From contig CM073324.1 of assembly GCA_037043015.1 (NCBI GenBank), positions 15,149,013 to 15,213,012 on the forward strand: a DNA stretch of 64,000 bases. Direction: 5' to 3'. The DNA comes from Bryum argenteum. Its lineage: Eukaryota > Streptophyta > Bryopsida > Bryales > Bryaceae. The position numbers and the translations under genes are program-made. Shown here piece by piece: positions 14,207-62,475 of this stretch; within the stretch, counting starts at the first letter, position 1, and each line of letters opens with the position of its first letter. Under the pieces are notes generated by a model that had not been told where the DNA came from, made no database searches, and was given only the letters and a program-made list of their open reading frames with translations.

Positions 14207-15343
14207 AGAGGTGCTGCACGGGCACCAATTGTTTCAGTGATGGCGTCCTCCTCCCACACACTGCATGCGTCGCTAGCTGCGACCTCCCCACCCTCCCGGC
14301 ACGCTTGCCTCCAGCGCCTTGTTTGCCCGAGCTCGCTATCCCCTTCCCATTGCCCCGCCCTATCATCGCTAAACCCTTACCCTCTTCCACTTGGATGCTT
14401 CATCCATTGCTTCAATCTTGCATGAGAACAATAGAGTTATCCACAAACTAGAGAAAAATGCTCCCTAGGGTAAATTCTGCTTGAACTTGATGATGTGATA
14501 GAGCAATACTTCTCATATCGACGATGAATTTAGTTCGAGTTTGCTCATATCTAGTTTCATGACATTCCTCTGAGTTCATGATGTATGCTTTGTAAGGTTG
14601 ATTCTTGGTAGCATTGTGATAACCTTGTTTTCTTTGGCTAGTTTTGATACTTCAAATGGGTGAGATAGCCCATGACTCTAACAATGACTCAAATTGCTAT
14701 AATAATTCTTATCTGAGTTGATTGAGTTGATCGAAAAGTCACGGGAAGTTTTCACCTTTGTGAAGTTCGACTATAAGCTGAATTTATTGTCATGAACAAC
14801 GTCAAGCTAGTATAGCTCTTGGAAAGAAATCCATACTACACAATTAAGCTAGCATAGCTCTTGGAAAGAAATCCATACTACACAATTTGAAGGGGAAGTC
14901 ATTAATATCTCTTTGGAACTTTGTGTGATCTCAAGAAAAATCTTTTTAAGTGAATTTGTCACATGGACTTTATACAATTGTTTTGAGTTGTAAGCCCAAG
15001 TCAACCAAGTGGTGTACAAAGGATAAACAATATGGGTTATTCATGGAAAGTTTGTTTGTAGCTCTTTGTATAGAAAAACCCTCTGTCACATAAAGTCTCA
15101 TTTCTTGAAATGATATAGGTCTCTTCACATGAAGAGGAGGAGGTAGCTCCTGCGTCTCATAAGTTATTTATTGAATAAGAATCTCCATCTGCACATGAAT
15201 TGCAAGTAGTAACCATCCATCTTGTTGAGCTAGCATTACTAGTTATATCAGAAGTTTCAAGAACTCAAGAATTTGACATTTTGTAGCAAAGACCATCTAT
15301 TCAAGAATTTCCTACCAAGAGCTCCTTTATAGCCTTATTTTAA
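14207..15343. other. Spacer with a short tandem duplication
   Basis: This contains the upstream region of the deformylase gene. Apart from the 42-bp duplication at 14803-14888 nothing is recognisable. Confidence 0.45.
14803..14888. repeat. 42-bp tandem duplication, two copies
   Basis: The word AAGCTAGTATAGCTCTTGG followed by AAAGAAATCCATACTACACA recurs exactly 42 bp later with one change (AAGCTAGCATAG). It is a simple recent duplication with no coding sense. Confidence 0.85.
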
Positions 15344-15705
15344 CCCTTAAACGCCCAAGCAAGCCTGAGGGGCTTGATCCCAACATAATCTTCTCTGTAG
15401 CTCTCACTGTAATCGACTTCTCACTTATATTTTGATGTCAAACTGGTCAACGTCTTATGATGCATTCATTTAAAGAAATTTTACAATTAAAATCACAATT
15501 TGTATGTATGATTTTATGGTTTGAAAGGTTTGTGGTAGGTAGGTTGGGGTTGTACATAACCTTGTAGGAGGTTGCAAGCTCATCATTGATTGGTTCATTC
15601 ATGATGCCCAAGTTCAAAAAGTGCACTATTCATGATGCCCAAGTCCAAAAGATGTTGTGATCCAATTTTGGGCTGCCCGTTTTAGACCCCATGGGCGTGT
15701 AAGGG
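15344..15705. mobile_element. TTAA-flanked MITE, piggyBac-like termini (copy a)
   Basis: A 362-bp element starts CCCTTAAACGCCCA and ends with the inverse TGGGCGTGTAAGGG, and is flanked by TTAA on both sides (15340-15343 and 15706-15709). Beyond TTAA the flanks do not match. The interior is unrelated to the longer members at 34136, 39205, 49547 and 61502, so only the ends are shared. Confidence 0.7.
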
Positions 15706-15709
15706 TTAA

Positions 15710-18260
15710 TTCAACTTGTAAACCCCCACAACCAAGTGCTTCACAAGGTAAAAAATTGTATTATGGAGGAGAAGTTGCCGGTCATGTGGCTATTCATGTA
15801 AAGAAGCCCTTCAAAAAGTGAAAAATATTTCTCTTAAACATGCGTGCATAAGAAATTGTTATTTTAGAAAACTCTCAAATGTCTCTATTCTCTACGAATG
15901 CATGGAAAGTAACTCGTGAAACATTTAAATGATGTTTTTATCTATACGTACATGAGCAATAGAGTGGAAGCAAGTACATTATAAGTCAAACTTAAGGTAA
16001 CATTCAATGTTTTGGAATTTGGATCATTCCATCAAATAAAGAAGATATTGCTACCAACTTGATTTGCTTTAAAAAATAAAATAAATCTTATGGTTGTGAA
16101 AATTTCTTGTACGTATGTATAGTTTTAGTATGCATAGTTTTTATTATGAAAAGTTTTAGAAACATTTGAAACCTTTTCACCGCACTAAATGGGAGATTCC
16201 AGCATTCAATGAAAAAAAAGCACCTAAACAAATTGACCGGCAACTGACTTTAAGCATGCATCATGACTTCATACAAAGTCTAAAACGCAATCTCTTTTGT
16301 AAACACATCATACAATAAAGTGGCCTACTATTCTTGTGAGTATTCATCTCAAAATGATATAAGGTCTATAAAATCATTGGTGAGGCTTGCAATCAGCAAA
16401 AATATACATAAACTCAATATTCCATAACCATTATCATGTCATAAAAACCATGTCATAATTTGGGTAAGTTTGAAACACATGGTTGCTTGGAAAAATCCTT
16501 CATGTATTCCTTATTTTAAGACAACTTCAACGAAAAAAGCAACTATCTATAATTGCCATTTAGATTTGAGCTTCTTGTCAATGTAGATAAATTAACCTTA
16601 TTTGACTAAGAATAACAAGGATTAACTGAGAGATTTACAAGTGATGCCCAAACCCTACTTGCACTTGGAACTATGCTACTAAAATTCTCAATTAAAATAG
16701 CATGTCTCTAGGACCTTTATCAGTTTTTACTTTCAATTGAAGTACAACACAACATCAAAGCTCAAAAGCATGTTAAAATCTCATGGAGTTTGGAAAATTT
16801 CCTTACAAGAAATGAATTGTAACTAGATGCATTTCCAAATGAAGCATCCTCAAATGGATTAAGCAATTGCAAAAATCTTGAAAACAATAATTTCTATAAA
16901 TTCCAACAAAAGAAGGAAACTAAATTGCCATTTTGATGTGGGCAACATAGAAATGTTGGGTCAAACTACCGGTATCCTCCTTCTTGGAACTTCTAATAGG
17001 GGTTCAAGTTTATTTAATTTAGACCAAGGGATCGTTGCCATCTAATCATGTGGCGTAGTTGTAGTATGTATTGATTTCTTACAAACCTCCAAATCAGCAA
17101 TAAAGGGTCAATCTTGTATGCAACAAATTACCCCTACAAATTTCCCTTGGCAATCCCTTGAACCACCCTTCTTCTCACGAAACCTTATTTTGGCCCACAT
17201 TTTTGCACCCAATCTAGGGTCCCAAAAAAAAATTGAAAACCTGGCGAAAGAGATCTAATATGGGTTGAACATTTATCACATAATATAATCATCACATTCC
17301 TTCCATTCATCCCCTATATTTAGAAGGAAAATATCTAATCCTAATGTTATTGCCAAAACTCTCAAAACCCCATATAATTTTCACGAAACTTCAAGGACAA
17401 AACCGCTTTAATTAGATATAATAACTATGAACGATGGTATCATGAATTTACTAATTTTTAATCAATCGCATGAGGAACTCGAAGTTATACAACACTTAAA
17501 TAGTGAAGACACGCCAATGATTTTTTCTTCTTAACCAATCAATGTATTAATTTATTACACAATCAATACATCAAGAACCAAAGTAGGAAGCCTCTTTAGC
17601 AATATCTATTATTATTTCTTCTTAGACGTCGATGAACTTTGAAGACTATACATATCAAAATTGCATAGCACTTGGGACCATCATTCCTTCAATCAAGATC
17701 TTTCAAATATGCATTTTAGGATATGAAAAATCCATATTAACCCAATTTAATGAACATAGTCAGTCTCTTTCATTTAACTCAAAATTTCAAATGGGTTATC
17801 GGTAAGTAGTGAATTAAGCATTCATTAGGGAAGGTTTCAATTCAAATTACCACTAAACGGACAGTATAATAGAACATGAACATTGAAGACAGTTGAATTG
17901 CCCCCCTCCTACAAAGCCACAACCCCTTTACATTGATAACCTAACTAACTTTGCAATCAATAACAAGTGAAAATTTGTGGGCAGGCAAAAAAAAAGCTCC
18001 AGAAGTAACATTAATGCAAACAATATTTTGAAAGTTTAACTAAATTGGTATTAAATTCTTCATTTATGGGCCGGGCTCTGTTTTCAAATATTATTTCAAG
18101 TGGCAATATTTCTGTTAGTCAGGAAAACCCACTTATGGAGAAATTTCTCCATGTTCCCCTTATTACTTCTTCATGATTTTCCTTTATGAGTTGTTTTTCC
18201 AGAGTTTAATATGGGCTCTGACAACCTCAAAATCTGGAGCTATGGAGTGTGGCTATCTTA
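15710..18260. other. AT-rich spacer, nothing recognised
   Basis: About 2.5 kb without a frame of notable length or any protein motif. It may be decayed transposon sequence, but I find no terminal repeats or target duplications to support that. Confidence 0.5.
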
Positions 18261-18488
18261 GGGCCGATTTACACCTAGGGGCCGGGCCAAGTTTTCTTGG
18301 GGCCAATTGCTTGAAATTTCAGCCCGTTTTTGGGTTGGGGCCGGCCTCAAGTCCTCATTATAATATGATTAGAATGGGGGCCGATTTTCCCATATGTAAT
18401 GGCCTTCGGGCCAAGAAGCCGGGCCAATTCAATAAAGTCCAAAAAAATTCAGCACTTCTCTCTCTTTTTTCATTGGCATTTTTTCAAA

Positions 18489-19595
18489 ATGGATGAACGA
18501 AGGCATAAGGTTTTAGTGGCTCTTGTGTTCTTCATGGCCGTGCGACATGTTATGGCGGTTATTACAATATTGCAAAAACTTGCTTTGAACCAACATTATG
18601 GTGCGATGGCGATGGTTTTTGCTATGATGGTTGTGGAAGATAGTGCTTCTAGGAGGACACGGAGCATTTGGATGTATGACCGAAGCAATGTTTTTGCAGA
18701 CAAATTATTATTTGGAAGCTATTCGGTTCGGTTATTCAAGCAACATAGAAGGTTACTTCCAGAAACTTTTGATTACTTGTGTGGCATTTTATCTCCTTCT
18801 TTGAGACGTGAAGATTCAAAATTCAGAGTAGCAATTCCTCTTAGAAACCGGGTTGCTCTTTCATTGAATAGACTTAGTAGTGGGAATTCATTACGTGGTT
18901 GTGCTGAAATATATGGCATTCATGAAAGCACCGCATCTATCATTGTTAGAGACTTTTGTGCAGCAATGGAGAAGCATTTGAAACCATTAGTAATTGAGAA
19001 ATTATCTAGAAATTCTTTGTCTAGAATTGCAGCCGAATTTGAGGATCTTAGGGGATTGCCTTATGTTATGGGAGCAGTTGATGGAAGCCACATACCTATC
19101 ATTGCCCCCCCTATAGATCCTACTTCGTATTATTGCAGAAAAGGTTTTTATTCGGCTCTACTTCAAGGCATAGTTGATAGCAAATGCAAGTTCTGGGATT
19201 ACGATTTTGGATGGGCTGGGCGCTGCCATGATTGGACTTTGTTCCAAAATTCAGATATTGGGAAAAGAGTGATGAAGGGTGAGTTATTACCTTATAAATT
19301 AATTGGTGATGCGGCTTATCCAATGAGGCCGTGGTTTTATTCTCCTTTCAAAGGTGAAAAGGAAGGATTACCTAGAGCAAAGGCGCATTGGAACTTTATT
19401 CAATCATCAACAAGAATGGGGGTAGAGAGGGCGTTTGGAATATTAAAAGGGAGGTGGAGGATTTTATTGAAGAGGATTGACATGCCTCTTGAAAATGTAC
19501 CGAATGTGATTACAAGTCGCATTTGTCTTCATAATCATGTATCATACACCAAGACAAGTTCGATGATGAATGGGCCAAGGAAGGAGAGAGGATAA
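18489..19595 (+). CDS. PIF/Harbinger DDE transposase, frameshifted near C-terminus
   Basis: Cuts and joins the element's own ends. The start MDERRHKVLVALVFF at 18489 looks right; an in-frame ATG 90 bp upstream (18399) would add 30 unconvincing residues. After a helix-turn-helix-like region (LRGCAEIYGIHESTASIIVRDF) the DDE domain shows all three acidic blocks: VMGAVDGSHIPI, GWAGRCHDWTLF with LIGDAAYP, and GVERAFGILKGRWR. The conserved tail after ICLHNH continues in another frame from about 19545 (motif CIIHQDKFDDEW). The frame therefore stops early at 19593-19595, and more acidic coding-like sequence follows to 19964. Length about 368 residues against roughly 400 or more for intact relatives. 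The enzyme core is complete; whether the shift is real or a sequencing error cannot be told. Confidence 0.9.
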   Translation: MDERRHKVLVALVFFMAVRHVMAVITILQKLALNQHYGAMAMVFAMMVVEDSASRRTRSIWMYDRSNVFADKLLFGSYSVRLFKQHRRLLPETFDYLCGILSPSLRREDSKFRVAIPLRNRVALSLNRLSSGNSLRGCAEIYGIHESTASIIVRDFCAAMEKHLKPLVIEKLSRNSLSRIAAEFEDLRGLPYVMGAVDGSHIPIIAPPIDPTSYYCRKGFYSALLQGIVDSKCKFWDYDFGWAGRCHDWTLFQNSDIGKRVMKGELLPYKLIGDAAYPMRPWFYSPFKGEKEGLPRAKAHWNFIQSSTRMGVERAFGILKGRWRILLKRIDMPLENVPNVITSRICLHNHVSYTKTSSMMNGPRKERG

Positions 19596-20007
19596 TGCAA
19601 ACGGAAAGTAGAAATCAACTAGGAGATTTGGGGAATTCGATATTTTCATGGCGGCTACACACAGTTTGCAAAGGAGATGAGGAGATATTTGAGAATGAAG
19701 GAGGTTGAAGTCGGAATTATGCTCTTTGAAGACCTTGAAGGAACCAAGGTGAATGAAAATGATGGTGTAGAAGAAGAAGAAGAATTGAGTGCTCAAATTG
19801 TAGAAACGAAGAAAGACAAGGAAGCTAGGATTAAAAATATGCTTGTGCAAGCTACACAAGCTCATGAATTACTAGCTCAATCGTTTTGGGAAGCACACTT
19901 GAGGATGGAAGGAAAAGTTCTCTTCCCCCGAGACTATGATGCAACTGATTCGGAAGAGGAGTAATTCTACAATTTGTCTATAAGCCTATCCATTTGCCGT
20001 TCTACCT

Positions 20008-21210: not shown

Positions 21211-21876
21211 TCCCTCATACCCTTCACTAGATGCCCATCCACTCCTCTCTCTGATCCCTCCATGCTATCCTAGAAAATGCAACAAAAAAATTGACAAGCA
21301 CAAAAAAATTCGAAAAAACAAGTACAAGTGAGAGAGGAAGAGAGGAGGAGGGCGAGAGACAAGGGAGGATGAAATAGGGATGCGAGAAAGAGAGCACATT
21401 CGATCTTCGCAAAAACGGACGGATTTGATTCGGAGAAAGAAAATTGTTTTTTAAAAAAAAAGGTTTTTTTAGACAAATCTGACATTGGCCCCCAGGCCAA
21501 GAATTGGCCTTCCATTCTCGGTGCACCCAATTCACCGAGCTCGGGCCATGTCAGAACTTGCATTTCTTGATTAAAAAAATTCTGACACCAAATTGGCCCG
21601 GCCTCTAGGTGTAAGGGGGTTGGGCCCGATTTTTGCCTTTCGGCCAATCACGAGTGAGGATTTCAGCCCTCAAACGGGCTGAATTGGCCCGTCCCCTAGG
21701 TGTAAAGCGGCCCTTACTAGAATTGTACTCCAACTTAATTTGCATACTAAAAGAACCTCAATCATGTGTATTGATTTTCAATGGAGTAATACTCCTATTA
21801 GTTCTTAAAAAATGAAATGAACTCCTTGAAGTGGTAATATCTCGCATAAAATGAACCTTATGGGGTTAGAATATAG

Positions 21877-22113: not shown

Positions 22114-22348
22114 ACACTGTAAAGAGAGGGTGGTATTACAAGAATTGTGATATCGCAGTAGTATTCGGATATGTCACTAGAGCGGTACTTTGTAACAAAA
22201 AGGATAATTTTAGTATGTCGAAGAATCGATGCTCGGAATATTGTCCATTCAATAAGATTGTCAAAAAGAAGGATTTTGTTATGTTTTTTGTCACAAGTAT
22301 TTGACGATTAAAAAAATTAGTCCTAACGAACCCAAACTTAATGTTTTC

Positions 22349-33667: not shown

Positions 33668-33988
33668 TCGATCGATCACCACCCGCCAGGTAACGTCACT
33701 GCTCATCTCGGAAGAACGTAATCAGAGGCGAGTTCATTTTTGCCATGCTCAGGACTGTGCAAGCAAACCAATTTTTGTGTCAGAATGGTGGTTTATCATG
33801 GAGAATGTCAGCTTGAAAAGCTGCATATGGGTTGATTAGTGATTAGTTTTGGGTGTGATTTGTGAGTTGGTATATTAAATGTGTCATTTCAGTTGTGATG
33901 ATTCAATTACTTCCATTTTAACTGTCAATTTAGCATTTTTGACATGACGGCCACTGGTACATAATTAGAAAATTTCACTCTAAATTAA
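33668..33988. other. 3' flank of the receptor gene
   Basis: Presumed 3' untranslated sequence, beginning with GATCGATCGATC right after the stop. No gene. Confidence 0.45.
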
Positions 33989-34823
33989 CCCTTAAAAGTC
34001 CCTTGGGGATAGTTTGTACGCAGTCGTATAATTAGGATTTGCTACCAACAAGAAACTCTAAACTGAAATCGTAATAGCTCACTAGAATTGCATTCATTCA
34101 AATGTCAACTTCTCCTTTGAACTCAAACCCATTAACCCTTAAGCGGGCCGAATGTCGAAAAACGACATTTTGGATGACACCAACTTTGGAGAGCCATAAC
34201 TTCTTCATCCGGACTCCGTTTTGGACGAAATCACTTGGGTTGGGTCCCAAATCAAGTCTAGTTTATGTAATGAAAATCTCAGACCCATACAATGAAGTAT
34301 GAATTAATGGCATGCATTTCAGTGACAGCAGCCTAGTTTTAGACATTTTTTCCTTTGTAAAATTTAGGGCAGTTTTCACCATTGCAGGGCCATAATTTGC
34401 ACAAAGAAATTTTTCTCATGGTTTTTTTTTGTTCAAGGATGCTACTGAGATGAAGGTGAACAACATTCTAATTGGTGACTTTTTCATTGCAATAAGTCTA
34501 ATGGTAGCATTTTCACTTTAAAGTGAAAATGATGAAATTATGTGATCATTTTTGAGTATTTATACATTATGATCTCGCAATCTATGAAGCCTCATGACTC
34601 AAAATTTGACCCACATGATGTTCAATATGTCTACGACAAGATTGTACGGTTGAGATTTGGATAACACACTTTTACCTCCACCTATGACAATGCTTTTGAG
34701 GATGTGTTCATTTTACTACAAATGAGTCAAACCATTTAGGGGTTAAAGGTGTGCATTCACTCCAATACAACCAAAATACATTGTATTCTACTGATCGCCA
34801 CGGCACGCTCAGACCTTTAAGGG
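33989..34823. mobile_element. TTAA-flanked MITE with a second one nested inside (copy k)
   Basis: Outer ends CCCTTAAAAGTCCCTTGG and GACCTTTAAGGG (inverse CCCTTAAAGGTC) are flanked by TTAA at 33985-33988 and 34824-34827. About 224 bp are its own; the rest is the 607-bp member at 34136-34742 with one TTAA. Confidence 0.65.
34136..34742 (+). mobile_element. 607-bp TTAA-flanked element, piggyBac-like termini (copy b)
   Basis: Starts CCCTTAAGCGGGCC, ends CCATTTAGGGG, flanked by TTAA (34132-34135 and 34743-34746). Near the left end is a hairpin word (GTCGAAAAACGAC). The interior holds a 24-bp palindrome centred on CACTTTAAAGTG. It has no coding capacity beyond a 66-codon frame. Reading it against 39205-39811 I find no difference in 607 positions. 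Confidence 0.85.
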
Positions 34824-34827
34824 TTAA

Positions 34828-39200: not shown

Positions 39201-39204
39201 TTAA

Positions 39205-39811
39205 CCCTTAAGCGGGCCGAATGTCGAAAAACGACATTTTGGATGACACCAACTTTGGAGAGCCATAACTTCTTCATCCGGACTCCGTTTTGGACGAAAT
39301 CACTTGGGTTGGGTCCCAAATCAAGTCTAGTTTATGTAATGAAAATCTCAGACCCATACAATGAAGTATGAATTAATGGCATGCATTTCAGTGACAGCAG
39401 CCTAGTTTTAGACATTTTTTCCTTTGTAAAATTTAGGGCAGTTTTCACCATTGCAGGGCCATAATTTGCACAAAGAAATTTTTCTCATGGTTTTTTTTTG
39501 TTCAAGGATGCTACTGAGATGAAGGTGAACAACATTCTAATTGGTGACTTTTTCATTGCAATAAGTCTAATGGTAGCATTTTCACTTTAAAGTGAAAATG
39601 ATGAAATTATGTGATCATTTTTGAGTATTTATACATTATGATCTCGCAATCTATGAAGCCTCATGACTCAAAATTTGACCCACATGATGTTCAATATGTC
39701 TACGACAAGATTGTACGGTTGAGATTTGGATAACACACTTTTACCTCCACCTATGACAATGCTTTTGAGGATGTGTTCATTTTACTACAAATGAGTCAAA
39801 CCATTTAGGGG
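39205..39811 (+). mobile_element. 607-bp TTAA-flanked element (copy c), twin of copy b
   Basis: Same ends, same length and, by eye, the same sequence as 34136-34742. Flanked by TTAA at 39201-39204 and 39812-39815. The left flank GCCGCC and right flank CCCCTA do not match each other, so the duplication is TTAA only. The right TTAA is also the left TTAA of the next element. Near-identity implies recent movement. Confidence 0.87.
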
Positions 39812-39815
39812 TTAA

Positions 39816-40070
39816 CCCCTAAAGGTCCTTGATACAAAATTGTTTGAATTATCAAAAAGAACCTTTTTCTACTTCAGGTGTAAAGAAACTCAATCTAAGC
39901 ATTGATCAGAAGATCCAACCGTAGGATCTTGAAGTCAACTTGACCCTTTTCTCGAATGTTAAATTTGAACCGTTAATTTTTCTCCAATTTTGAGATTATA
40001 ATGGTCAAAGTTGGCTGAATTCTTGCGGAAATTCCAAAAAGCGATTTCCGCTTTCTTGGACCTTTAGAGG
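39816..40070. mobile_element. Short TTAA-family MITE (copy d)
   Basis: Starts CCCCTAAAGGTCCTTG, ends CTTGGACCTTTAGAGG. The left side is TTAA (shared with copy c); the right side is TTAC, taken as a mutated TTAA. It is related to the decayed copy at 41608. Confidence 0.65.
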
Positions 40071-40123
40071 TTACCTTTTGTCACTATTTCTTCTTTGAAA
40101 CTAACCCTACGGCAGGTACTTAA

Positions 40124-40708
40124 CCCTTAATTGACATCCTTGTTTCCCACAAATTGGAGAGAAACGCAACCTCATTGTCTTCTGGCCTTATTTCTGCATT
40201 GAAGGTAAACCATTTTTGAGAATTGGAAACGGTGGTTATCAAGGTAACTTGGTGATGTGACCAATGCAAAAAAGATCGATTACATCGGGTAAAATCTCAT
40301 AAAATGGCACCGTTGAGATAAAAATGTTTTGGTTGCTGATCGTGAGTGAGAAATATCATATCGCTTTTTTGGTTTTTCCCCCTTGGGTCATTTTTTCCTG
40401 AAAATTGGCATCATAGAGCATGGTATAGGGATAAAGATCAAGATTTTTTATTATTTTGAAAAAAAATCGTCAAAAAAATAAAAAGAAAGGCCAAGTCAAA
40501 GTGCATTGACCATGGGATCACGTGGCCCCTACAATTTTGCGCGGATCACACAAACCTCAAGAAGGCGATCGGAAAGGATCATTGGATTCGGAAAAACAAA
40601 AGAATAGGGGTGCCTTTGGACAAAATTTGCATCCTACCACTGTGTCGGACCCCAAAAGCAAAAACAATGACACCGAGGACCAATTTGGTCCTCGGTGACA
40701 ATTAAGGG
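40124..40708. mobile_element. TTAA-flanked MITE (copy e)
   Basis: Starts CCCTTAATTGACATCC, ends GGTGACAATTAAGGG, with TTAA on both sides (40120-40123, 40709-40712); 585 bp with no frame of note. The interior is unrelated to copies b and c. Confidence 0.72.
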
Positions 40709-40712
40709 TTAA

Positions 40713-41607
40713 TATCGCACGATGTTGTTCAAAACAGAAATTAATCTTTCCCTAGAGGGTGAATCAAAGAGCTCTACCATGCTCAAAGATTTAACAATTC
40801 TGAACCATCAAGTGCATTGGAAAGGAAGTAGAAGATACTTTCCAATTCTTGTCATCCTTGTCGTTATTTGATTATAGAGAACGGTGAGGATTTGCATTCT
40901 TCATGCATTGATGGTGCCTATAAAAATCTCTCATAGGTGATGAGTAATGATTTTTTTGATGAGCGCAAATGATCGTTGAGTTTTGAATTGTGGTTACTTA
41001 CTAATTATTATCGATTCAAATTTAATAACCATGTGAAGTTCATACTAAATGTTTGTTTAGGTCATTGTATAAAGAAATTAGGGAAACACAACAACCTATG
41101 AAGTTATGAAGGGAAAAGATAAGTGATATCTCAATATCACAACATGCCTTGAAGATCTACCACTCAATGAAAGAGTTGATTTATAAAAGGTACTTTTATA
41201 ATGGTTACAACTTCAATTATTGATTGGTGAAAATGTTCTTGCATGCATGTGCTAGTGACTCTTTCAACTATTATTTGCAATTTATATATTACCAACTCAC
41301 ATTCCATGCTAAAATACACTTGATTCTTGTATATGTTGAGGGTCAATTTTGTAAAAGAATATCAAACAATGTGATCTAGATTTAATTGATCAAACAATAT
41401 GCATTTTTCATATACGCAATATTTTGAGTTTATACTTGAGGAGATTGCATAGTTATTTCCAAAATAGTCATTTTCACAAATAGAATAACCAACATTGTTT
41501 TTGTGTGGCAACTTTGTTGGAATTTAGCAATTGCTAAAGATTATCTTTCTTGTCACCTCATGCCTCTCAAGTTTGATTGTCACATGCCACATCCAATTAT
41601 ATGTTAA
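40713..41607. other. AT-rich spacer
   Basis: No gene or defined element seen. Confidence 0.45.
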
Positions 41608-41855
41608 CCCCTATAGGTCCTTGATTCGAAATTGGCCAAATTACAAAAAATGACCTTTCTTTATTTCACACCAAAAAATATAATTTAAGTATCAAATAGA
41701 AGATCCAGTGTAGTATCTCTTGCCTTTTTATTTGCATGTGAAATTTGAACGGGTGATTTTTTTTCATTTGTGAAATTATAATGATTATAGTTGGCTGATT
41801 TTACCACCACAGGAACCCCGGAAAGCCATTTTGGTTTTCTTCAGTCCTACAAAGC
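41608..41855. mobile_element. Decayed TTAA-family MITE (copy f)
   Basis: The left end CCCCTATAGGTCCTTG follows a TTAA (41604-41607) and the interior resembles copy d (GATCCAGTGTAGTATCT, GTTGGCTGATTTTACC). The right end near AGTCCTACAAAGCTAA is degenerate, so the border is approximate. Confidence 0.5.
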
Positions 41856-46320: not shown

Positions 46321-46660
46321 GGGTCGCATTACACTATGAACCATGAAGATTGACCACGGCCTTCTAAAACTCGTGACTGGAGAGTAAAGTGTTCTTGGTC
46401 CCATTTAGCTTGAAAAAAGGAGAATGACCATTAACTTTGAGATTCTCAAAGTATGCTAAATTTTCATTCTGTATAACATTTTCATGGTCTCCTTGATTAT
46501 AGTTGAGTCGAGGCAGATGCCTAGACTTGACTGCAATCAAGGAGACCATGCGCCTCAAAAATTATTGATTGGCTAATGTTCAATTTTCTGAGGAGAAAGA
46601 AGAAAAAAAGGGGAGGGTAAAATAGAGAATGATGAAGATTTATATTATGGAATCGAGCAT

Positions 46661-47507: not shown

Positions 47508-47603
47508 GAATTGAGCATAAACTTGTCCCAATCCAAATCCACTTCACACTACAAGAGTGACCAAGCCATTTAAAATTTCATTTATGATTTATCATGGACA
47601 CAA

Positions 47604-47699
47604 CTCTTGGCCAAATGATTTGATTTATTGATATATCATAGACATAGCTCTTGGCCAAATGATTTGATTTATTGATATATCATAGACATAGCTCTTGGC
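47604..47699. repeat. 44-bp tandem repeat, just over two units
   Basis: CTCTTGGCCAAATGATTTGA begins at 47604 and again at 47648, with a third partial start at 47692. It has amplified within the Tourist-like MITE. Confidence 0.85.
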
Positions 47700-47960: not shown

Positions 47961-49542
47961 ACAAAATAAAAAAATAAAAGATAAAAAAATAAAAAGACTT
48001 GTATTTGGTACATCTCTTTTTGGGGCTTAACAATACTTTAATCTTGAGTATTGTCAAATATAAAGAAAAAAATCAAAACACTGTGAAGTACTCATTGTCT
48101 CCTATAATGTGAGATCAATAGGTTCTCTCAAATCTATTTTTTAGGCTGATTTGAGAGAACCGATTGATCTAACATTATGGAACATAGGAAGTAGTATTTG
48201 ATAAAGCTTAATCACGGTACATCAAAACATGCCAACCCTCCTGATTAGACAAAAGAGTGTCCCTTATATTGGAACTTGGGAAGTACAAGTTGAAAGTTTC
48301 AAAGTTTGAATTTGTCATAAACAAAAAAGGAAACCATCCTTATGTGTTTCCATGCAAACTAACACCAAATAAAGGGGTTAGTAGATGTGAACAAGGTGTC
48401 GACAAGTGGATAAAACTTGTTTTTGCCATTTCAAATGCAAATTCAACTCTGAAGAATAAAAAACAAATTATAACAAGAAGACAAGCTTTATAAACATGGC
48501 TAAACATTGGCAATCCATTGTTGTCCATGATGTAGCTTCAATCGAGAAGTAATTGTACGATATCAATTAGTTACAAGCAAGCAATATGCATATGTATAAA
48601 TGATAGTGCAAAAGTTAATTGGTATTACTACACTTGACAGAGAAAAGTAATGGTTACCAAGAATAGCAATTAGCAAACGTAAAGGGAATGCCTTACGTAT
48701 GGCATTTCCAACACAAAATAGGAAAATCCCTTACAAATGCAAAAAGGCCCTAACTACGTATGTCAACAAAGTGTCTCACAAAAGATATAGGTGCATTGGG
48801 AAGTCAAGTTAGCATGGCACAGTAAAATGCCCAAACTTCATGTAAAATGAGATGCATTTATAAAAAATGCAAAAATATAATCCCAAGCAACTTAGATTTA
48901 AATACAAAAGTATAAGATAAGTTATAATCTCCATACGTTTGGCAAGGCTGAGCAAAGTTATACCGCTTAAGATACAAACTTTGCATGGATTTATAAACAA
49001 AGCAAAAATGTTAGATCATGAGAAGTATTTTGCATGATATTGAAATTTCTCAAAAGACAATTTAGAGCAAAGAAAAGAAAGAAAAAGAAACGGTGTAGGA
49101 CAATCATAAGGTTAGTCCAATTGAACAAGAGGGTTTTATGACTTTAAGGATATTAATGTGCTAGGGACATACGATAGGTATGATAAGTCCTTGGTGTATT
49201 CTATTTGTCTATCCTTGTTGAAGTCATAAGAAGACTTTTATGACGAGTAAATTTTCTAAGGGACAAATGCAAATGAGTTTGAGACTTTCTGTAAGTGCAA
49301 TTTAACCCTTAAAAGTAATTAATCCCAAGATGTGTTTGATGTTGAATTTGAACATTTTGGATAAAGAGATGGAATTTTAGATAGTCATAATTTCTTCATC
49401 CTAAATCTCTTCTTTACATACTATGTTGCGTTGAAACTCAATATAAGCCTAAGTTTTGAAAATCCATTCCACATGCCACAAGTTCCTTCTTTGAACTAGA
49501 TTTTATTTATTTATTAATCTTTTTTCTTATGTAAGAGAGAGC
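47961..49542. other. AT-rich spacer
   Basis: No gene. An inverted pair ATAGGTTCTCTCAAATC and GATTTGAGAGAACC at 48118-48160 forms a short hairpin. An orphan TTAACCCTTAAAAGT near 49302 looks like one end of another TTAA element without a visible partner. Confidence 0.45.
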
Positions 49543-49546
49543 TTAA

Positions 49547-50519
49547 CCCCTAAACGTCCCTAGTGTCGAAAAACGACATTTTGGATGAAGGGCAGGAACT
49601 TTGAAGAGCCATAACTTCTTCATCCGGACTCCGTTTTTGACGAAATCACTTGGGTTGGGTCCCAAATTAAGTCTAGTTTGTGTGGTACAAATTGCAGACC
49701 CATACAATGAAGTATGAATTAATGGCATGCATTTTAGTGACAGCAGCTTTTGGTTTTGAGATTTCAAACATTGGGCATGTTTCACCATTGCAAGCCAATT
49801 ATGCAAAACCAAAAATAGTTTTTCATGAATTTTTTTTACATAAGTATGATCTTTAGATGTATTCTAACAACTTTCTAGTTGCAAGTTTTTTGATCCAAAT
49901 AACTTTGCTAGTGGATTTGCAATGATGTTTCTACAATGAAAAAAGTGAAAAAATAGATGATTTTTGAGGAGCTAGATCTCCTTCATCCACCGTTAGATTT
50001 CGAATTTATTCTATGGGATAGATTCCAATCATAGTCTATTTTAAGTGGTAGAAACCTTAACCTTATTGAAGATGTATTGAAGATAGGGCATGGATTTGAG
50101 TGCAAAGGGTCTTGTTTTGGACTATTTTTCCTTTGTAAATTTTGAGGCAGTTTTCACCATTGGAAGGCTACTATTTGAGCCAAGATATTTTTTTGATGAA
50201 TTTTTTTGATACAAAAGTGTTTTTGAGATGAAGATGAACAACTTTCTAGTTGGTGATTTTTTGATTGCAAATTTCATGTTGGTAGTATTTTCACTTCAAA
50301 GTGGAAATGATGGTATTTTGTAGCCTGTTTTGCGCACTAATATGTTACGATCTCCCAATCTATGAGGTCCCATGAGTCAAGTTTTGGCCCACATGATCTA
50401 CTACAAGTCTATTACAAGTTTGTACGGTTAAGATCTGAATAGCTTATCTTTATTTTCATCCATATCACTTTTTTTGAAAATGAGTTTTTGGCTAAAAATA
50501 CCCCAAGGACGTTTAGGGG
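49547..50519 (+). mobile_element. Long TTAA-flanked element (copy g)
   Basis: 973 bp, starts CCCCTAAACGTCCCTAG, ends CAAGGACGTTTAGGGG, with TTAA on both sides (49543-49546, 50520-50523). It shares the GTCGAAAAACGAC hairpin, the words CATCCGGACTCCGTTT and TTGGGTTGGGTCCCAA, and the central palindrome with copies b and c. It has about 360 bp of extra interior, so b and c look like internal deletion derivatives of a longer type. Confidence 0.82.
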
Positions 50520-50523
50520 TTAA

Positions 50524-51345
50524 GCTGAAACCCAACAACTTATTAGTTGAAAGATTCTATTGTTGTCTTTTCTCTTGAAATTGCATCTTCAATGATGTTT
50601 TCAACTTACAAAAGCAAAAAAAATGCATGGGTCTAGATGAGTTGTATCTTCATCATTTCTCATTCTATTCTAATGCAAGTTGTTGAGTAAGAATCCATTT
50701 CAAGTTTTTGTTATGTGGTAGAAAGCTTAGTATAATCTAAAATGTCATGTAAACATGGCATGCACTCTAGTGCAAGAGCTTTAGCTTTTGACTATTTTTC
50801 CTTTGTGAGATTTGGGGCAATTTCCACCATTGCAAGGCTAATTTTTGAGTTTAGAAAAATAAAATAAATCATGACTTTTTTGGTATAGAATTGTTTGATC
50901 GCTGAACGTCCTTGGGGTATTATTAGCCAAAAACTCATTATTTATAAAAGTGACATAGATGAAAATAACAATAAGCTATTCACATTTTAACCGTACAAAC
51001 TTGTAATAAACTTGTTGTAAATCATATGGACCAAAACTAGACTCGTGGGATCTTATACATTGCTAGATGATAACGTTTTAGAGCTCAAAACAAGCTACAA
51101 AGAATCATAATTTTCACTTTGCAATGAAAATACTATTAACATGAAATTGCAATAAATAAAAAAATAACAAACTAGAAAGTTGTTCATCTTCATCTCAAAG
51201 ACTCAATTATACCAAAAGATTCATCAAAAAATGTAATGACTCAAATAGTAACCTTGCGATGATGAAAACTGCCAAACATTTTACAAAGAAAAAAATAGTT
51301 CAAAACTACACCCCTTGCAAAAAGAAGATAAACTTCAACCTATTT
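50524..51345. mobile_element. Broken pieces of the long TTAA element
   Basis: The first part matches the interior of copy g in direct order (TTTTTCCTTTGTGAGATTTGG). From about 50905 (AACGTCCTTGGGGTATTATT) a second piece runs in inverse order to about 51330. Neither has an intact pair of ends. Confidence 0.55.
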
Positions 51346-51349
51346 AGAA

Positions 51350-51520
51350 GTCGACGTGAGCAGAATGTTCATTGACCTATCCATGAATGCATGCACATAG
51401 GTCATTTCACCAATGGCAGGACTACTAACCCCTCTCAGGGTGAACACTATGCTAGTTGCCTAGTTCCCACCTAGCCACTAGTGCCTTAGAGATACCTGAC
51501 ATGGTAACCCAAACTAGACT
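51350..51520 (-). repeat. SINE/LINE tail fragment
   Basis: GTCGACGTGAGCAGAATGTTC followed by GGACTACTAACCCCTCTCAG (each quoted here in part) parallels the minus-strand insert at 46661-47507. Then come CTAGTTGCCTAG and TACCTGACATGGTA as in the SINE body. Confidence 0.5.
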
Positions 51521-51716
51521 ATAATTTGAATTCATCCCAAAAATGGAGTCAATATCTAACAGTGGATGAAGGAGATATAGGCCCTCAAATATTTATTTTA
51601 ACTTGAACATCACGATCTCACAAACAATATGTAATGATCCAAAAAAAACATTGTACACACACAAGTTAGGTACATTTACTCTTATTGCCACTCGTCAAAA
51701 TATGTCACAATATTAA

Positions 51717-52241
51717 CCCCTATAGACCCGAGGGGTTTGAAGAAAAACTTAGATGTGTTTTAAAATATGGACTTTGTAACCCTTATGATGTAGCGCTCCA
51801 AAGATAATATAAAGACCTTATACCAAATTAGATCTAGATGGTTAAATTTTCTAAAATAGGTAATGTTTGTTCTATAATGAATTAAAACGAGTAAAACTTT
51901 GAAAATCAATATAAAACGTACTTTTCATTATTAGTACTTTGAAATTTATATGATTGGCTAAAATCACATATTTTATGATAATAAAATGTAGAAAGGTTAT
52001 GAGTAACCTATGAGGAACCTTTCTAGTTTCCCAAAATAATAAGTTTTCTTGCACCAATAAAACCCTGCCTTGTTTGTGTTTGAAGGCTTATTGTGAACTA
52101 TCTTTGAATCCGAACAAGGTTTTGTAAATTGGATGTGGTTCCCAACTCACCAAAAATTCCAAAAAAAATCTTTTTTTAATCCGGGGACAACTCTTCAGAA
52201 TTCGGGATCAACCATAAAATGGTTGATTGGGCTCTTAGGGG
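51717..52241. mobile_element. TTAA-family MITE (copy j)
   Basis: 525 bp, starts CCCCTATAGACCCGAGGGG, ends GGGCTCTTAGGGG. The left flank is TTAA (51713-51716); the right flank is TTGA, taken as a mutated TTAA. The interior is unrelated to the other members. Confidence 0.6.
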
Positions 52242-52773
52242 TTGAGAAAATTCACCTAGCACTGAGAAAGGGCAGGGTTGAAATTTCCAAAGATTACTGC
52301 GCATTAATAATTATAAGTTACTTTAGAACACTATTCACACTTTAGGTCATTTTGCTGAAGGATGACTTGGCACTCAACGACTCACCTGCACTAGCCACAT
52401 AACCCTCACCCATCCTCGTCAAGGGCTTGCGTGGCAGCAAACGCGCACTTCGGTGACGCAAGTCGGATCACGTGTCACCAGCATGTTTCTTCTGCTGCGG
52501 GCACCTGTTCCCATGTTCCCAAGCGACGTTCGAGTCCTATCAACATGTACCTAGTACGTACATGTGACTGGGTCGGCACGGTGGAGAGAACAAGAAATAC
52601 AGGCCAGGGCGCAACTCTCCTCGCATTGCAATTAGCCGCGAGTCGCTGTTACCCTTCATTCGTAGTTGAAGAGATTCAGGTCCGAGCACCCGATTTGCCT
52701 TTTCGAACGGTACCAGCGGTGTAGAATTTGGTGCGGGGAAGCGAAAGTTACTGGAGGTCGAGGGTTTGTAGCT

Positions 52774-55636: not shown

Positions 55637-56916
55637 TTGGAGGGTAGTCCTTTGATGATGTGCTCCAATGCTCCATCAAGCGTTCTTTATGCTCTTAAGC
55701 TCTATCCTAACATAAACAAATGGACCTCCAATCCGGATATACATGCAAAATCTTCAAATGCCTTCTCGAAAAACCCAACAATTACAGACTCTCAAATAAC
55801 TAGCAAACTAAAATTCCGAACAGGACAATACATGGGATACGCAAGAAAACAACTATTCTTTGGACATATAAGGTTCCCATCAAAGACATGCCCTATCTGC
55901 AACTCCATAGAGGTAGATACGTGGTTACACGTCCTACTCAAATGCCCCCAACCAAACATACGCGCACTTAGAGTTACCAGGTACAATCAGACAGTTAAAA
56001 CCATCAAACAACTCATCATGTCAAACACCAAATCTAGATGCTACACACTCATAAATGCTGGAAAACACCTCAACGCACCTCCTGATAACACAGTTCCAAG
56101 CTGGCTCCTTCCTTGCACTTGCGACACACGTCGATGTGACTGCAATGCACGATTTAGACTTGACTTACTATGCGTAATAGGTCTCCCACACCAAGGCACA
56201 CCCCCACAACATCCCAATGACAACATTGTCATCCAATACGTTGAATTCACATATTGTAACGATAGATTCCCGCAAGAAACCATCACAAATAAAACCAACA
56301 AATACCAACCACTACTAGACTCAATAGTTTCCCGTGGGTGGAAAGTCAACCCTCTCATAGTCATCACCTCAGGCGCCAGAGGCACAACTCACACACCCTC
56401 CATGACTTCATTAGAAACCACATTCAAACTAACCAAAAAACAAATCAAACACACATTCAAATCAATTAACACAATAGCCATAAGACACGCCGCATTAATC
56501 CTCCTACATAAACGAAAACTAGAAAACCACCAAACCCTCCCCACCAATATCGAGCCACCATGACAAACAAAAAGGGGGGTAGTGGTGCAAACCACTGTTG
56601 TTAGCAGCGCACTACTTCAGTCTCAGCTTCTCGGGTAGGGGCCGGGTGGTTGATAATATTTTCCTGCCATATACTCACAGACAACCCCAGGCCATGCGTA
56701 CTGCTCAAACGAGCCCGCCAGGGTTCGAACTCGGACCAGCACAATTACAAACGTCCCACACCCCAACCACCCTAGGACTGCACGACTTGGTGACCACAAA
56801 GCCACCTAAATCCCACTTAAAACACCTATTGCATTGCCAAAACACTCGCACCCTAAATAGTTCTATCTTGGTTACTTTAGTTTAGTTCAGTTTCGTATAT
56901 AGTTTAGTGTCTATTA
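55637..56916 (+). mobile_element. LINE 3' part with RLE-type C-terminus (copy 1)
   Basis: The frame 55637-56563 (308 codons) is the C-terminal end of a non-LTR retrotransposon polyprotein. It has a CCHC zinc knuckle CPICNSIEVDTWLHVLLKCP, then RFRLDLLCVIGLP, IQYVEFTYCNDRF, NKTNKYQPLLDSIVSRGW and PLIVITSGARGT. The zinc knuckle followed by a (P)D...E...K region is the layout of elements that nick DNA with a restriction-like endonuclease (R2/NeSL/Dualen-like), not an AP endonuclease. The reverse transcriptase domain is absent, so the copy is 5'-truncated. After the stop come a 3' untranslated part with an antisense tRNA-like word, then TAGTGTCTATT where copy 2 begins. The RLE assignment is from motif order only. 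Confidence 0.72.
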
Positions 56917-57802
56917 TGCAACGCTAGATTCAAACCGGATATACTATGCGTTAAAGGTCTACCACACAAAAACGACCCACCAACACACCCATCAGACAAC
57001 CTCACACTTCAATTTATAGAATTCACATATTGTAACGATAGATTCTCTCAAGAAACAATTAATAACAAAACCGTCAAATATCAACCACTTCTTGATAACC
57101 TCCGTAACCTAGGATGGAAAGTAGACCCCCTCATAGTCATCACAGCAGGTGCTAGAGGCACAACACACAAACCATCAATGAAACTTCTTGCAGAAAAATT
57201 TAATTTATCAGAAACATGCATAAAACGCACATTCCATGAAATAAATACCATTGCCATTCAACACGCCGGTTCAATTATTTTACACAAAAGGAAAATCGAG
57301 AACAACCAAACGATTCCTACAATAATGTAACAATAAAAGGAGGAGGGCGTGAGAATTGGTGTAAACCACTTCCCACAAGTACAGTCACACTTGTCTCATG
57401 TAGATGGGACGGGGCCGATTGATTGGTACAAATTTCCTGCCTATATATAACACACTAGCAGCACCAAGCCATGTACATCACATTAAACGCTCAAACGGAT
57501 CCACCGAGTATCGAACCCGGACCGCTTATTTGTGACTCAAACATCCCTACCAATCAACCATGAATCATGGCTTGGCGATTATACCCACGACAAAAGCTTA
57601 CACAAACCTATTAGGTGCTCTGTTGACTATTCTAGGGTTACTTTTGTTTCTTCTGGCTACTATAGTGTCTAATCCCGAAAGGGGTGAGTAGTCTTGCACC
57701 AAGGTCCTTCTGTCCGGTGGGCTTTAGGTCGTTGGCTTGACGAACAGACACTCTAATCACGCCGGTCCTGAAAAAGGATTGGAGTTTTTATCTATCTATC
57801 TT
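56917..57802 (+). mobile_element. LINE 3' part (copy 2) with TATC tail
   Basis: The frame 56917-57330 repeats the C-terminus of copy 1: ARFKPDILCVKGL, LQFIEFTYCNDRF, NKTVKYQPLLDNLRNLGW, PLIVITAGARGT. Here the PD of the putative nuclease is intact, where copy 1 has LD. The untranslated part carries an antisense tRNA-like word (GGGTTCGATACTCGG on the minus strand near 57510). The 3' end CCCGAAAGGGGTGAGTAGT to GGATTGGAGTTT is followed by TTATCTATCTATC. It is severely 5'-truncated. Confidence 0.72.
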
Positions 57803-59623
<1,821 letters not shown>

Positions 59624-60929
59624 TAAGCTCTAAAAGTGGGATCTTTTCATAGTCTAGTTGATAAAGGTGCATTGCTCTTGATCGAAGTAGCAAATGTGTT
59701 CTACGTCAACGGGTAGTGGGAAATGAGGCAAGTGCTTACATGTTGTTGCCGCAATCAACCTCTCATCTTGTCAAAGAAACAAGCATAAGTCTCTCCTTCG
59801 CTCAAACCAAGAACTTTCGCAAACTCCCCTAAAATTCCAACTTCCCAAGCCCTCCTTGCTCCCCATGGAGTCTTCAAAAGCGGCAACAAATGGAGTGCAA
59901 ATGCTAGTCACCACATACCGAGGCTGCCTCTCCGCTATTATTGCAACATAGGAACACCTTCGCTCTAAAAGTTCACTCAATGGTTTGCCGTAGTGACTCT
60001 TTGCAAAAAACGGCATAGGAGACAAACAAGCAAGGAACAAAGTTAGAGTGGCAAGAGCCCCACCGCAAGTCTTAACAGTGCTCAACAGCAACCTTGCAAG
60101 CGCTCCCTAGTTCTAGAACCCTTGTACTAATATACATGCTATGTACCATATTCCTTATATCTTGAATGGTATTAAGGTTTGTACCACATAAACCAAATCG
60201 GAATCGGAATCCAACCCAACAAACAAAGTTGAAATCCAATTGTGAATGAAGGAGAAAGAACTCCTCTAAAACCATGTATTTCAGAAAAAATTAGTATATA
60301 AACATCTTGGCAAATTCAAGACTTAAATTATCCATATCAAAAATCTTTCAACTACAAAGCTCTTGGATTTTATGTTTAGATCACAATTATGTAGAATAAG
60401 TATATAAAAATCTTAACAAGATTTCACATAATTGGCTTGCAATGGTAAGATATGTCCCACGTGTGGAAACTCTAAAATAAGAGTTGCCTTCACCAAAATG
60501 CATGTCATATATTCATATTTTCTTGTATAGTTTTGCAATGTTTACCACACAAACTATGCTTGATTTGGGATCCAACCCAAATGATTTAGTCAAAAGCAGA
60601 CTTTGAATGAAATAGTTATGGTCCCTCAAGTTTTCACTTGTCATCTAAAATGTTGTTTTTCAACATTTGGCATGTTAAGGGTAAAACAATCATTTTGAAG
60701 CACAATAAACAATAGTCATAAATAAGTATGAAGAAAGAACTCAACTGATTGCTCGAACATAATGACCACTAGAATGAACATTATCAATCTTGAAATAATA
60801 GATTCAACAAAACCATCATTATTAACCTTTATCCACTTTATAGATTCTTTTAAGGTGACTATTGATAGTTCCTTCTTTGGGCTTCTAAAAGTGGATTCTG
60901 AACACATATTACATATCATTGAGAACTCA
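59624..60929. other. Spacer with an unrecognised frame and TTAA-element fragments
   Basis: A minus-strand frame at 59771-60091 (FAKSHYGKPLSELLERRCSY, RQPRYVVTSICTPFVAAFED) looks protein-like but I cannot name it; it may be transposase debris. From about 60280 to 60690 the sequence matches the long TTAA element in inverse order (GATCCAACCCAAATGATTT, AATGTTGTTTTTCAACATT), without intact ends. Confidence 0.4.
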
Positions 60930-61245
60930 GGGTCGCTTTACACTATGGACCATGAAGATTGGCCATGGCCTTCTAAAATTTGTGATTGGAGAGTAAAGTG
61001 CTCTTGGTACCATTTGGCTTTACACTACCTTGAGAAAAGGAGAATGACCACTAACTTTGAGGTTCCCAAAGTATGCTAAATTTTGCATAGCGGATAATGT
61101 TTTCATGGTCTCCTTGAATATAGTTGAGTCGAAGCAAATACCTCTTTGATTTATCATGGTCATCGCTCTTGGCCAAGAGCCATGACCATGAAAAAGATTT
61201 TAATTTTCTTGGTCATGACTCTTGGTCCATAGTGTAAAGGGACCC
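60930..61245. mobile_element. Tourist-like PIF/Harbinger MITE, short form
   Basis: 316 bp, ends GGGTCGCTTTACACTATGG and CCATAGTGTAAAGGGACCC, flanked by TCA on both sides (60927-60929 and 61246-61248). It is the same family as 10931-11435 with about 190 bp of the middle missing. Confidence 0.88.
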
Positions 61246-61501
61246 TCAAAGCCAAATGTCAATCAATACAAAAAAACAAATCTTCTTGTTAAGGAAGGAT
61301 AAAATTAAATTAATCTTTGAAGACTAACAACTACATATTCAAGGAAACCAACCTTTCTTTTTATTTTGGGACAACTTATAATAAGGTTCAAATCTAAATA
61401 TCTATTTTTCTTAGCCATGCTTCTTTGGGAAACTGTATGAAATATCCACATCGAATTTGGTAAATTGTCAAAAAATTATCAAAAGCAAGGTATATGCTTA
61501 A
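61246..61501. other. Short spacer
   Basis: No feature seen; ends in the TTAA (61498-61501) that flanks the next element. Confidence 0.4.
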
Positions 61502-62471
61502 CCTCTAAACGTCCTTGGGGTATTTTTAGCCAAAAACTCATTTTCAAAAAAAGTGATATAGATGAAAATAAAGATAAGCTATTCAGATCTCAACCGTACA
61601 AACTTGTAATAGACTTGTAGTAGATCATGTGGACCAAAACTTGACTCATGGGACCTCATAGATTGCAAGATCATAACATATTAGTGCGCAAAACAGGCTA
61701 CAAAATACCATCATTTCCACTTTGAAGTGAAAATACTACCAACATGAAATTTGCAATTAAAAAAATCAGCAACTAGAAAGTTGTTCATCTTCATCTCAAA
61801 GACACTCTTGTACCAAAAAAATTCACTAAGAAAAAATCTTGGCTCAAATAGTAGCCTTGTAGTTGTGAAAACTACCAAAAATTTTACAAAGGAAAAATAG
61901 TCTAAAACTAGACCCCTCGCACTCAAATCCATGCCTTTTCTTCAATTTATCCTCGATTGGGTCAAGGTTTCTACCACTAAAAATAGACTATAATTGGAAT
62001 CCATCCCAAAAAAAAAAGGCAAAATCTAACGGTGGATGAAGGAGATCTAGCTCTTCAAAAATCATCCATTTTTTCACTATTTTCATCGTAGAAACATCAT
62101 TGCAAAGCCAATACCAAAGTTATCTAGATCAAAAAACTTCCAACTACAAAGTTGTTGGGATGCATCTAAATATCAAACCTATGAATAAAAAATCATGAAG
62201 AACTATTTTAGATTTCACATAATTGGCTTGCAATGGTAAAACATGCCAAATGTTTGAAAACCCAAAAACAAAAGGTGCCTTCACTAATATCCATGCCATT
62301 TATTCATACCGGTACTTTATTTTATGAGTATGCAATTTTCACTAGACTTGATTTGTGACCTAGCCCAAGTGATTTCGTCAAGAACGGAGTTTAAATGAAG
62401 AAGTTATGGCTCTTCAAAGTTTTTGCCCTTCATCCAAAATGTCGTTTTTCGACACTAGGGATGTTTAGGGG
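61502..62471 (-). mobile_element. Long TTAA-flanked element (copy h)
   Basis: 970 bp, inverse in orientation to copy g. It starts CCTCTAAACGTCCTTGGGG and ends GACACTAGGGATGTTTAGGGG, quoted here across its last 21 bases only in part (TAGGGATGTTTAGGGG). TTAA on both sides (61498-61501, 62472-62475). The hairpin word GTCGTTTTTCGAC lies just inside the right end, and the CACTTTGAAGTG core is present. Confidence 0.82.
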
Positions 62472-62475
62472 TTAA

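Follow-up and report, generated by a model that had tools for sequence, protein, structure and literature searches.

The window analysed here is a 64,000-nucleotide stretch of the genome of the moss Bryum argenteum (contig CM073324.1, positions 15,149,013 to 15,213,012; C4:15149013-15213012 in our genome searches). It contains genes for a kinase-LRR (leucine-rich repeat) protein, a glycosyl hydrolase 17 and a peptide deformylase, and among these plant genes lies a set of short elements bordered by TTAA (Table 1). A first-pass annotation had listed ten of them as miniature inverted-repeat transposable elements (MITEs) with piggyBac-type starts. All ten listed starts are directly preceded by TTAA and follow the pattern TTAA+CC(C/T)(C/T)TA, nine with the tip CCC(C/T)TA and one with CCTCTA. 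Seven of the ten carry TTAA at both sides, as had been proposed, two show a one-base variant at the second end (GTAA or TCAA), and for the element at 41604 a second end was looked for and none was recognisable. Taken together with the empty sites and transposase genes described below, the ends indicate that these elements are almost certainly non-autonomous MITEs of the piggyBac superfamily in a land plant, and that transposases whose genes lie at other places of this genome would mobilise them in trans.

Since the exact motif TTAACCYYTA occurs on either strand at 19 sites in the window, compared to a mean of 0.45 and a maximum of 2 in 40 first-order simulations, and since TTAACCCYTAAA occurs 23,184 times genome-wide on both strands against 401 times for its reversed control, ends of this kind lie far above chance; the genomic number counts all occurrences of the motif, whether element ends or not. 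Two of the 19 sites, at 49302 and 60822, fall outside the listed elements, and the latter is probably a chance occurrence. Damaged members beyond the listed ten are present at 49302 (one end), 50902-51592 and 60115-60685 (with TTTA). Inverted repeats of 14–18 bases, TTAA included, were found at 15340 and 40120; some terminal repeat pairs are weak, for instance that of 34132-34746 past about 8 bases. The terminal inverted repeats of the piggyBac superfamily are given as 12–19 bp with CC(C/T)T tips in the retrieved text of the coral study (PMC2872659), and tips of this kind are found in all ten listed elements. The target variants GTAA and TCAA are also named for animal piggyBac elements in the retrieved part of a further source (PMC10813416).

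Table 1. Elements in the window with recognised or decayed piggyBac-type ends (positions are those of the window).
Element	Position	Strand	Observations
370-bp MITE	15340..15709	+	TTAA both sides; left-end palindrome, centre bp 25; its two ends most resemble those of transposase subfamily 1 (L011, L012, L020)
Outer element, about 230 bp minus insert	33985..34827	.	TTAA both sides; broken by 34132-34746; neither end with bp-25 palindrome
615-bp A-short MITE, nested in 33985-34827	34132..34746	+	TTAA both sides; left-end palindrome, centre bp 25
Second A-short copy	39201..39815	+	TTAA both sides; 100% identical to 34132-34746
B MITE	39812..40074	-	Left TTAA common with 39815; GTAA right; right-end palindrome (best centre 33, second best 25); right end closest to subfamily 2 left ends (L028)
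593-bp MITE	40120..40712	-	TTAA both sides; long right-end palindrome, centre bp 25
B relative, left end only: TTAA+CCCCTATAGGTCC	41604..41801	-	End coordinate from similarity to 39811-40021; right end not recognised
Single end TTAA+CCCTTAAAAG	49302..49542	.	Partner end not found; extent uncertain
981-bp A-long element	49543..50523	+	TTAA both sides; left-end palindrome
Damaged A-long relative	50902..51592	-	Both tips decayed; similarity in pieces
533-bp MITE	51713..52245	-	TTAA left, TCAA right; right-end palindrome, centre bp 25
Truncated A relative	60115..60685	-	TTTA at right end; palindrome centre bp 24
978-bp A-long element	61498..62475	-	Opposite to 49543-50523 (88%); TTAA both sides; right-end palindrome

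The nested arrangement at 33985-34827 allowed us to search the genome (258.8 Mb in 25 contigs) for sites without the inserted MITE. When the outer element minus its insert (232 bp, with one TTAA at the junction) was used as query, all 40 scored relatives aligned at 94–97% over 230–232 bases, and each of the four uninterrupted relatives that were read carries one TTAA exactly where the window has the 615-bp MITE between two TTAAs. A second empty site was provided by L021, a transposase-bearing element of 5758 bp that is inserted in a copy of the 615-bp MITE at an internal TTAA (positions 428-431) and has TTAA on both sides; of the other MITE copies fetched from outside the window, all ten have a single TTAA at this point. 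Because the empty sites carry a single TTAA in 4/4 and 10/10 cases, both one MITE family and one transposase-bearing element duplicate TTAA on insertion, as the first-pass annotation had predicted for empty sites; it had suggested a sister accession, and ours come from the same genome. One site taken alone would not distinguish a duplication of TTAA from a 2-bp duplication of TA, yet all four bases are constant in 151 of 157 ends. These are the exact genomic occurrences of the 49-base palindrome end of the 615-bp MITE, 151 of which have TTAA directly before them. The 12 copies of this MITE that were fetched, two being the window copies, all have TTAA on both sides and unlike flanks, which is what had been expected of a collection of genomic copies.

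The families differ in their uniformity. All 40 scored candidates of the 615-bp MITE (1101–1110 bits, again with the two window copies) match at least 613 of the 615 bases, and the ten copies fetched from outside the window are mutually identical over 607 bp; judged from the sequences, this near-identity is the mark of a recent burst. Both window copies, which lie 5 kb apart, carry a private T at MITE position 430 (giving TTTA there), a common base that suggests a local hop. The A-long pair forms one family of longer relatives of this MITE. For the 370-bp family the 40 scored candidates, the query itself included, are 95–100% identical, and for the 593-bp family 93–100%, again over 40 candidates with the query; by this measure both families appear older than the 615-bp burst. 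These identity figures describe about 40 scored candidates per family, and the first-look candidate numbers are no copy counts. Copies of the 370-bp MITE were also seen head to tail with a four-base overlap, as if sharing one common TTAA (G000:C3:28421779-28422514 and G000:C2:9802597-9803315), and in the window 39201-39815 and 39812-40074 likewise adjoin with one common TTAA. Tandem arrays of piggyBac MITEs are described from corals in the retrieved text (PMC2872659).

The genome contains many genes for a transposase of the piggyBac type. With the Pfam family DDE_Tnp_1_7, scoring covered 116 of 775 first-look candidates and gave 116 matches (best E 7.4e-82), 93 of which have no stop within the matched stretch by a hand count of the listing; no match was found in 14 control genomes, a weak control since these are apparently prokaryotes. 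Six matches on contigs C1, C2 (two), C4, C8 and C9 share one score of 258.4 bits, which suggests recent transposase copies. None of the 116 places scored, out of the 775 candidates, falls within the window (G000:C4:15149013-15213012), in agreement with the earlier statement that the transposase itself is not there. Contamination is unlikely, because the transposases were fetched from contigs of 17 to 44 Mb and the window elements lie among plant genes.

For the first 20 rows of this listing, we sought pairs of TTAACC(C/T) ends around each locus. At 15 of the 20 loci such a pair spans the transposase at a distance of 4469–6570 bp, with tips such as CCCTTAAACGCCC, CCCCTAAAGATCC, CCCCTCAAGGCCC and CCCCAAAGCGTCA, and the anticipated DDE_Tnp_1_7 genes bordered by termini like those of the MITEs do exist; as the search itself demanded TTAA, its presence at these loci is no independent evidence. 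The pairs at L019 (11/16) and L023 (10/16) are weak. At L020 two pairs tied at 12/16 and the shorter was taken, and at L011 the second-best pair (14/16, 4950 bp) was taken over the best (16/16, 7325 bp) because the far end of the latter is part of a 370-bp MITE copy. The open frame of L011 (494 residues) matches the piggyBac transposase structure 6x67 with an E value of 4.1e-31 over query residues 21-439 and the piggyBat structure 9c0f with an E value of 4.9e-22, the only further row from the Protein Data Bank having an E value of 0.24; against Pfam DDE_Tnp_1_7, L011 reaches 2.6e-83 and L024 4.4e-79. L011 aligns to 6x67 at the DE, CDN and GVD motifs, whose positions we take to be those of the catalytic residues, so that the catalytic aspartates of the superfamily are in place. 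A crude motif scan recovered all three motifs in 7 of the 20 frames (L011, L014, L015, L020, L024, L026 and L028) and missed at least one in the others. Of the 20 transposases, 13 have a CxxC...CxxC motif near the C-terminus.

By pairwise identity the 20 stop-to-stop frames fall into several subfamilies, namely L011/12/15/20/26, L014/16/21/22/24/27-30, L018/25 and L019/23, with L013 alone and L017 at 50–52% to L019/23; identity between subfamilies is mostly 30–45%. The first-pass annotation had envisaged one piggyBac-like transposase as the driver of all the elements: the piggyBac assignment is borne out, but a single driver is probably wrong with several subfamilies that are 30–45% identical. 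Since several subfamilies coexist, each MITE family probably has its own driver, with transposases encoded outside the window acting on the MITEs in trans, so that the 370-bp MITE at 15340 would be served by subfamily 1 and the B MITE at 39812 by subfamily 2.

This pairing was approached through the element ends. BLAST links the 15340 element, through its first 64 bases, to L011 and L012 at their left ends (E 7.4e-7, 77%). A second link joins L028, again at its left end, with the palindrome end of 39812-40074, by which we mean the end with the palindrome described below (39 bases at 90%, E 3.5e-9). When bp 6-45 of the ends were compared without gaps, as matches out of 40, the palindrome end of 15340 was closest to subfamily-1 left ends (27/40) and its other end closest to the right end of L011 (25/40, next subfamily 22), with GGGCAGCCC at the same place in both. 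The palindrome end of 39812-40074 was closest to the left end of L028 (32/40), with a paired change inside the palindrome, and its other end closest to the right end of L014 (21/40). A specific partner is likely for 15340 and for 39812 on the basis of these matches. The palindrome end of the 593-bp family (40120) is closest to L019 and L023 (23/40), a weak partner match, and the non-palindrome end of 51713 is nearest to the left ends of autonomous elements.

Eight of the ten listed elements carry, in one of their ends, a palindrome centred 25.0 bp from the tip (15340, 34132, 39201, 40120 at 40712, 49543, 51713 at 52245, 61498 at 62475 and 39812 at 40074); at 40074 this palindrome is second to one centred at 33.0, the sole recognised end of 41604 lacks it and the damaged copy at 60685 has its centre at 24.0. 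Counting six pairs about bp 25, the eight palindrome ends of the window, which were chosen after looking, average 5.12 pairs and the seven opposite ends 2.00. The autonomous elements offer a fairer test, as it is the transposase that defines their two sides: the mean is 4.50 pairs over 16 left ends (2.75 at the next-best centre) and 0.80 over 15 right ends. Among 45 surveyed non-redundant ends of both kinds the peak likewise falls at 25.0 (2.93 of 7 pairs, with a mean of 1.84). When the partners were re-dealt over the 24 left or palindrome ends, the 113 pairs observed compared with a mean of 66 and were reached in none of 5000 trials, a statistic that ignores relatedness, several of the 24 ends being close relatives. 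A palindrome near bp 47 of the right ends (mean 3.4 of 6 pairs over 15 autonomous right ends) is not claimed here, as it is strong in L021 and L022 only and uneven elsewhere.

The palindrome sequences differ between subfamilies. For the insect piggyBac transposase, two C-terminal domains bind a palindrome at bp 17-33 of one end (PMC7351741), and the left end of piggyBat has a motif at bp 11-16 located 3 bp from a palindrome unrelated in sequence to that of piggyBac, with none in the right end (PMC11707139), as far as the retrieved text of either study goes. By analogy, the geometry of the bp-25 palindrome is the same here as in piggyBac and piggyBat, and a C-terminal cysteine-rich motif is seen in most of the transposases and a palindrome in one end of most of the elements, with the outer element 33985-34827, L029 and L030 as exceptions to the latter. 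We tentatively suggest that the subfamilies coexist in one plant nucleus and would be kept apart by their palindromes: the 25 bp from tip to centre and the terminal repeat would stay fixed, while palindrome and C-terminal domain would change together as lock and key, and this distance, the same in insect piggyBac and about 25.5 in piggyBat by our own reckoning, would be a ruler of the superfamily. We place this proposal slightly below an even chance, as 33985-34827 lacks such a palindrome.

A number of observations weigh against our interpretation in its several parts. Neither the A family nor the 51713 family has a clear end match among the 20 examined loci, which also yielded no autonomous parent for the A family; the assignment of a driver to each MITE family would follow from the ends only. 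Five of the 20 loci have no clean end pair, namely L013, L017 and L025 without any, L015 with a poor pair that was dropped and L028 with a left end only. The full C-terminal motif is absent from 7 of the 20 transposases, being partial or disrupted in L013 and L027, while the frames of L014, L017, L023, L024 and L030 end before it. The outer element 33985-34827 has no bp-25 palindrome in either end. In L029 and L030 the left end forms only 2 of the 6 pairs.

Part of this could be accommodated if the elements were piggyBac MITEs whose bp-25 palindrome is a by-product of hairpin-rich MITE sequence and no binding site of a transposase. The choice of the window palindrome ends after looking, the listed element without a palindrome and the two autonomous left ends that barely have one would fit such an origin; however, the palindrome also marks the left ends of autonomous elements, where the side is set by the transposase (4.50 against 0.80 of 6 pairs, next-best centre 2.75), and the re-dealt partners fall well short of the observed pairs (66 against 113, none of 5000, relatedness ignored), so that we regard a by-product as improbable. 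The absence of a parent for the A and 51713 families among the 20 loci would also be compatible with MITEs of another TTAA-targeting superfamily, to which the piggyBac genes would be a separate population. Kolobok and Sola3 also duplicate TTAA. Against either of them stand the transposase-bearing piggyBac elements with the same tips, the one-ended bp-25 palindrome and the same target, and on the genome search made with the piggyBac family DDE_Tnp_1_7 we consider this origin highly improbable.

The window itself holds a candidate for a different driver, as a DDE_Tnp_4 transposase (E 5.3e-26) lies between inverted repeats flanked by TTA in a PIF-like element at 18261-21713, and the MITEs might be of the Tourist type of PIF/Harbinger with a 3-bp TTA/TAA duplication. 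The PIF-like tips GGGCCGATTTACACC are unlike CCC(C/T)TAAACG, though, and filled and empty sites of the 615-bp MITE differ by a 4-bp TTAA duplication, by which this origin is refuted for 34132; we give it next to no credence overall, and the PIF/Harbinger element was rejected as a partner on tips and duplication length. A Helitron-type 3′ hairpin was likewise rejected, given the inverted repeats, TTAA on both sides and the empty-site duplication. The likeness of CCCTAAA to the plant telomere repeat was dropped, the ends being single units at element tips, and two viral contigs with a 17-base end, which were partly read and in which no element was seen, were taken as chance. Piggybac-superfamily MITEs mobilised in trans by resident transposases are the reading we retain.

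Further features were seen in the window and the genome. The PIF/Harbinger element 18261-21713 is near complete, with its DDE_Tnp_4 gene at 18369-19595, inverted repeats GGGCCGATTTACACCTAGG, TTA on both sides and a Myb-like frame on the other strand that is below the Pfam cut-off. A repeat with GGG...TTTACAC-like tips is present in three copies (10926-11443, 46318-47609 and 60925-61253) that are possibly PIF-type MITEs; the copy at 46 kb has about 850 extra bases and the copy at 61 kb lacks about 190, and no TTAA/CCC ends were seen by eye in the extra bases at 46653-47507. A very long tetranucleotide array at 57918-59633 is open in three frames as repeated IYLS. Related open frames lie at 55628-56563, which has no Pfam match, and at 56908-57330 (about 70% DNA identity); the opposite strand carries a third relative, at 47216-47467. 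A search against Rfam gave no match at gathering scores. Genome-wide, 90 chlorophyll-binding matches were obtained, among them clusters of weak matches with frames of about 230–250 residues (G000:C2:25064562-25094660, G000:C5:8161886-8412977 and G000:C5:14730833-14760859), which we take to be probably ELIP-like genes. Such clustering is known from desiccation-tolerant plants. When one of the chlorophyll-binding genes was compared with the Protein Data Bank, 9vfj_2 came first (434 bits, in two stretches of a long chain), followed by 7xqp_a and 8htu_U (366 bits), both of the moss Physcomitrium, by 8c29_G of spruce (354 bits) and by further chains at or below 349 bits; the plant genes of the window and the chlorophyll-binding matches point to a photosynthetic plant, and this ranking by itself makes a moss likely.

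Our analysis documents a sizeable piggyBac population of a land plant, part of it very recent, in detail that extends to its empty sites and open transposase genes. With a piggyBac that is native to a plant and has MITEs of its own, one could test seamless excision in plant cells and ask how related transposases might be kept apart by the palindromes of their ends. For the annotation of such MITEs in further plant genomes, the bp-25 palindrome would be a useful signature and, if the proposed tip-to-palindrome ruler is true, it could be used to find MITEs of the superfamily without any transposase.

In plants, piggyBac is named among the MITE superfamilies of angiosperms (PMC10004981) and among plant DNA superfamilies (PMC10794571), and repeat tables count 1,230 piggyBac elements in the C-fern (PMC6890710) and one in Stipa (PMC8319324). 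The retrieved parts of these four sources name piggyBac in lists and describe no open transposase, element end or empty site. No title on a native moss piggyBac was among the matches listed for piggyBac with moss or bryophyte in open-licence full text. The earlier remark that piggyBac is not commonly reported from land plants fits a superfamily known chiefly from animals and rarely described from plants, but two reviews and two repeat tables had already named it there. The elements are therefore not the first piggyBac to be mentioned for plants; they are a known kind of element in an unusual host.

The closest parallels come from animals. Coral CMITEs are piggyBac MITEs with TTAA, CC(C/T)T tips, an empty allele, terminal repeats in common with the resident piggyBac and tandem arrays; they differ in their animal host, and the word palindrome, which was searched for, is not mentioned in the retrieved text of that study (PMC2872659). 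With piggyBac of Trichoplusia ni (6x67, PMC7351741), in what the retrieved text describes, the moss elements share the TTAA target, CCC tips, a DDD transposase, a palindrome in the place of the bp 17-33 palindrome to which the C-terminal domain of piggyBac binds, and asymmetric ends. The host of that element is an insect and its palindromic repeat is present in both ends, differently placed, whereas the right ends here have no bp-25 palindrome and only the weak and uneven one near bp 47. piggyBat of Myotis lucifugus (9c0f, PMC11707139) is the weaker sequence match (E 4.9e-22 against 4.1e-31) and has a mammalian host and, from the retrieved text, three such sites in its left end; as in the moss elements, its palindrome, at about bp 19-32 by our own reckoning from the positions of the third repeat, is confined to the left end and unrelated in sequence to that of piggyBac.

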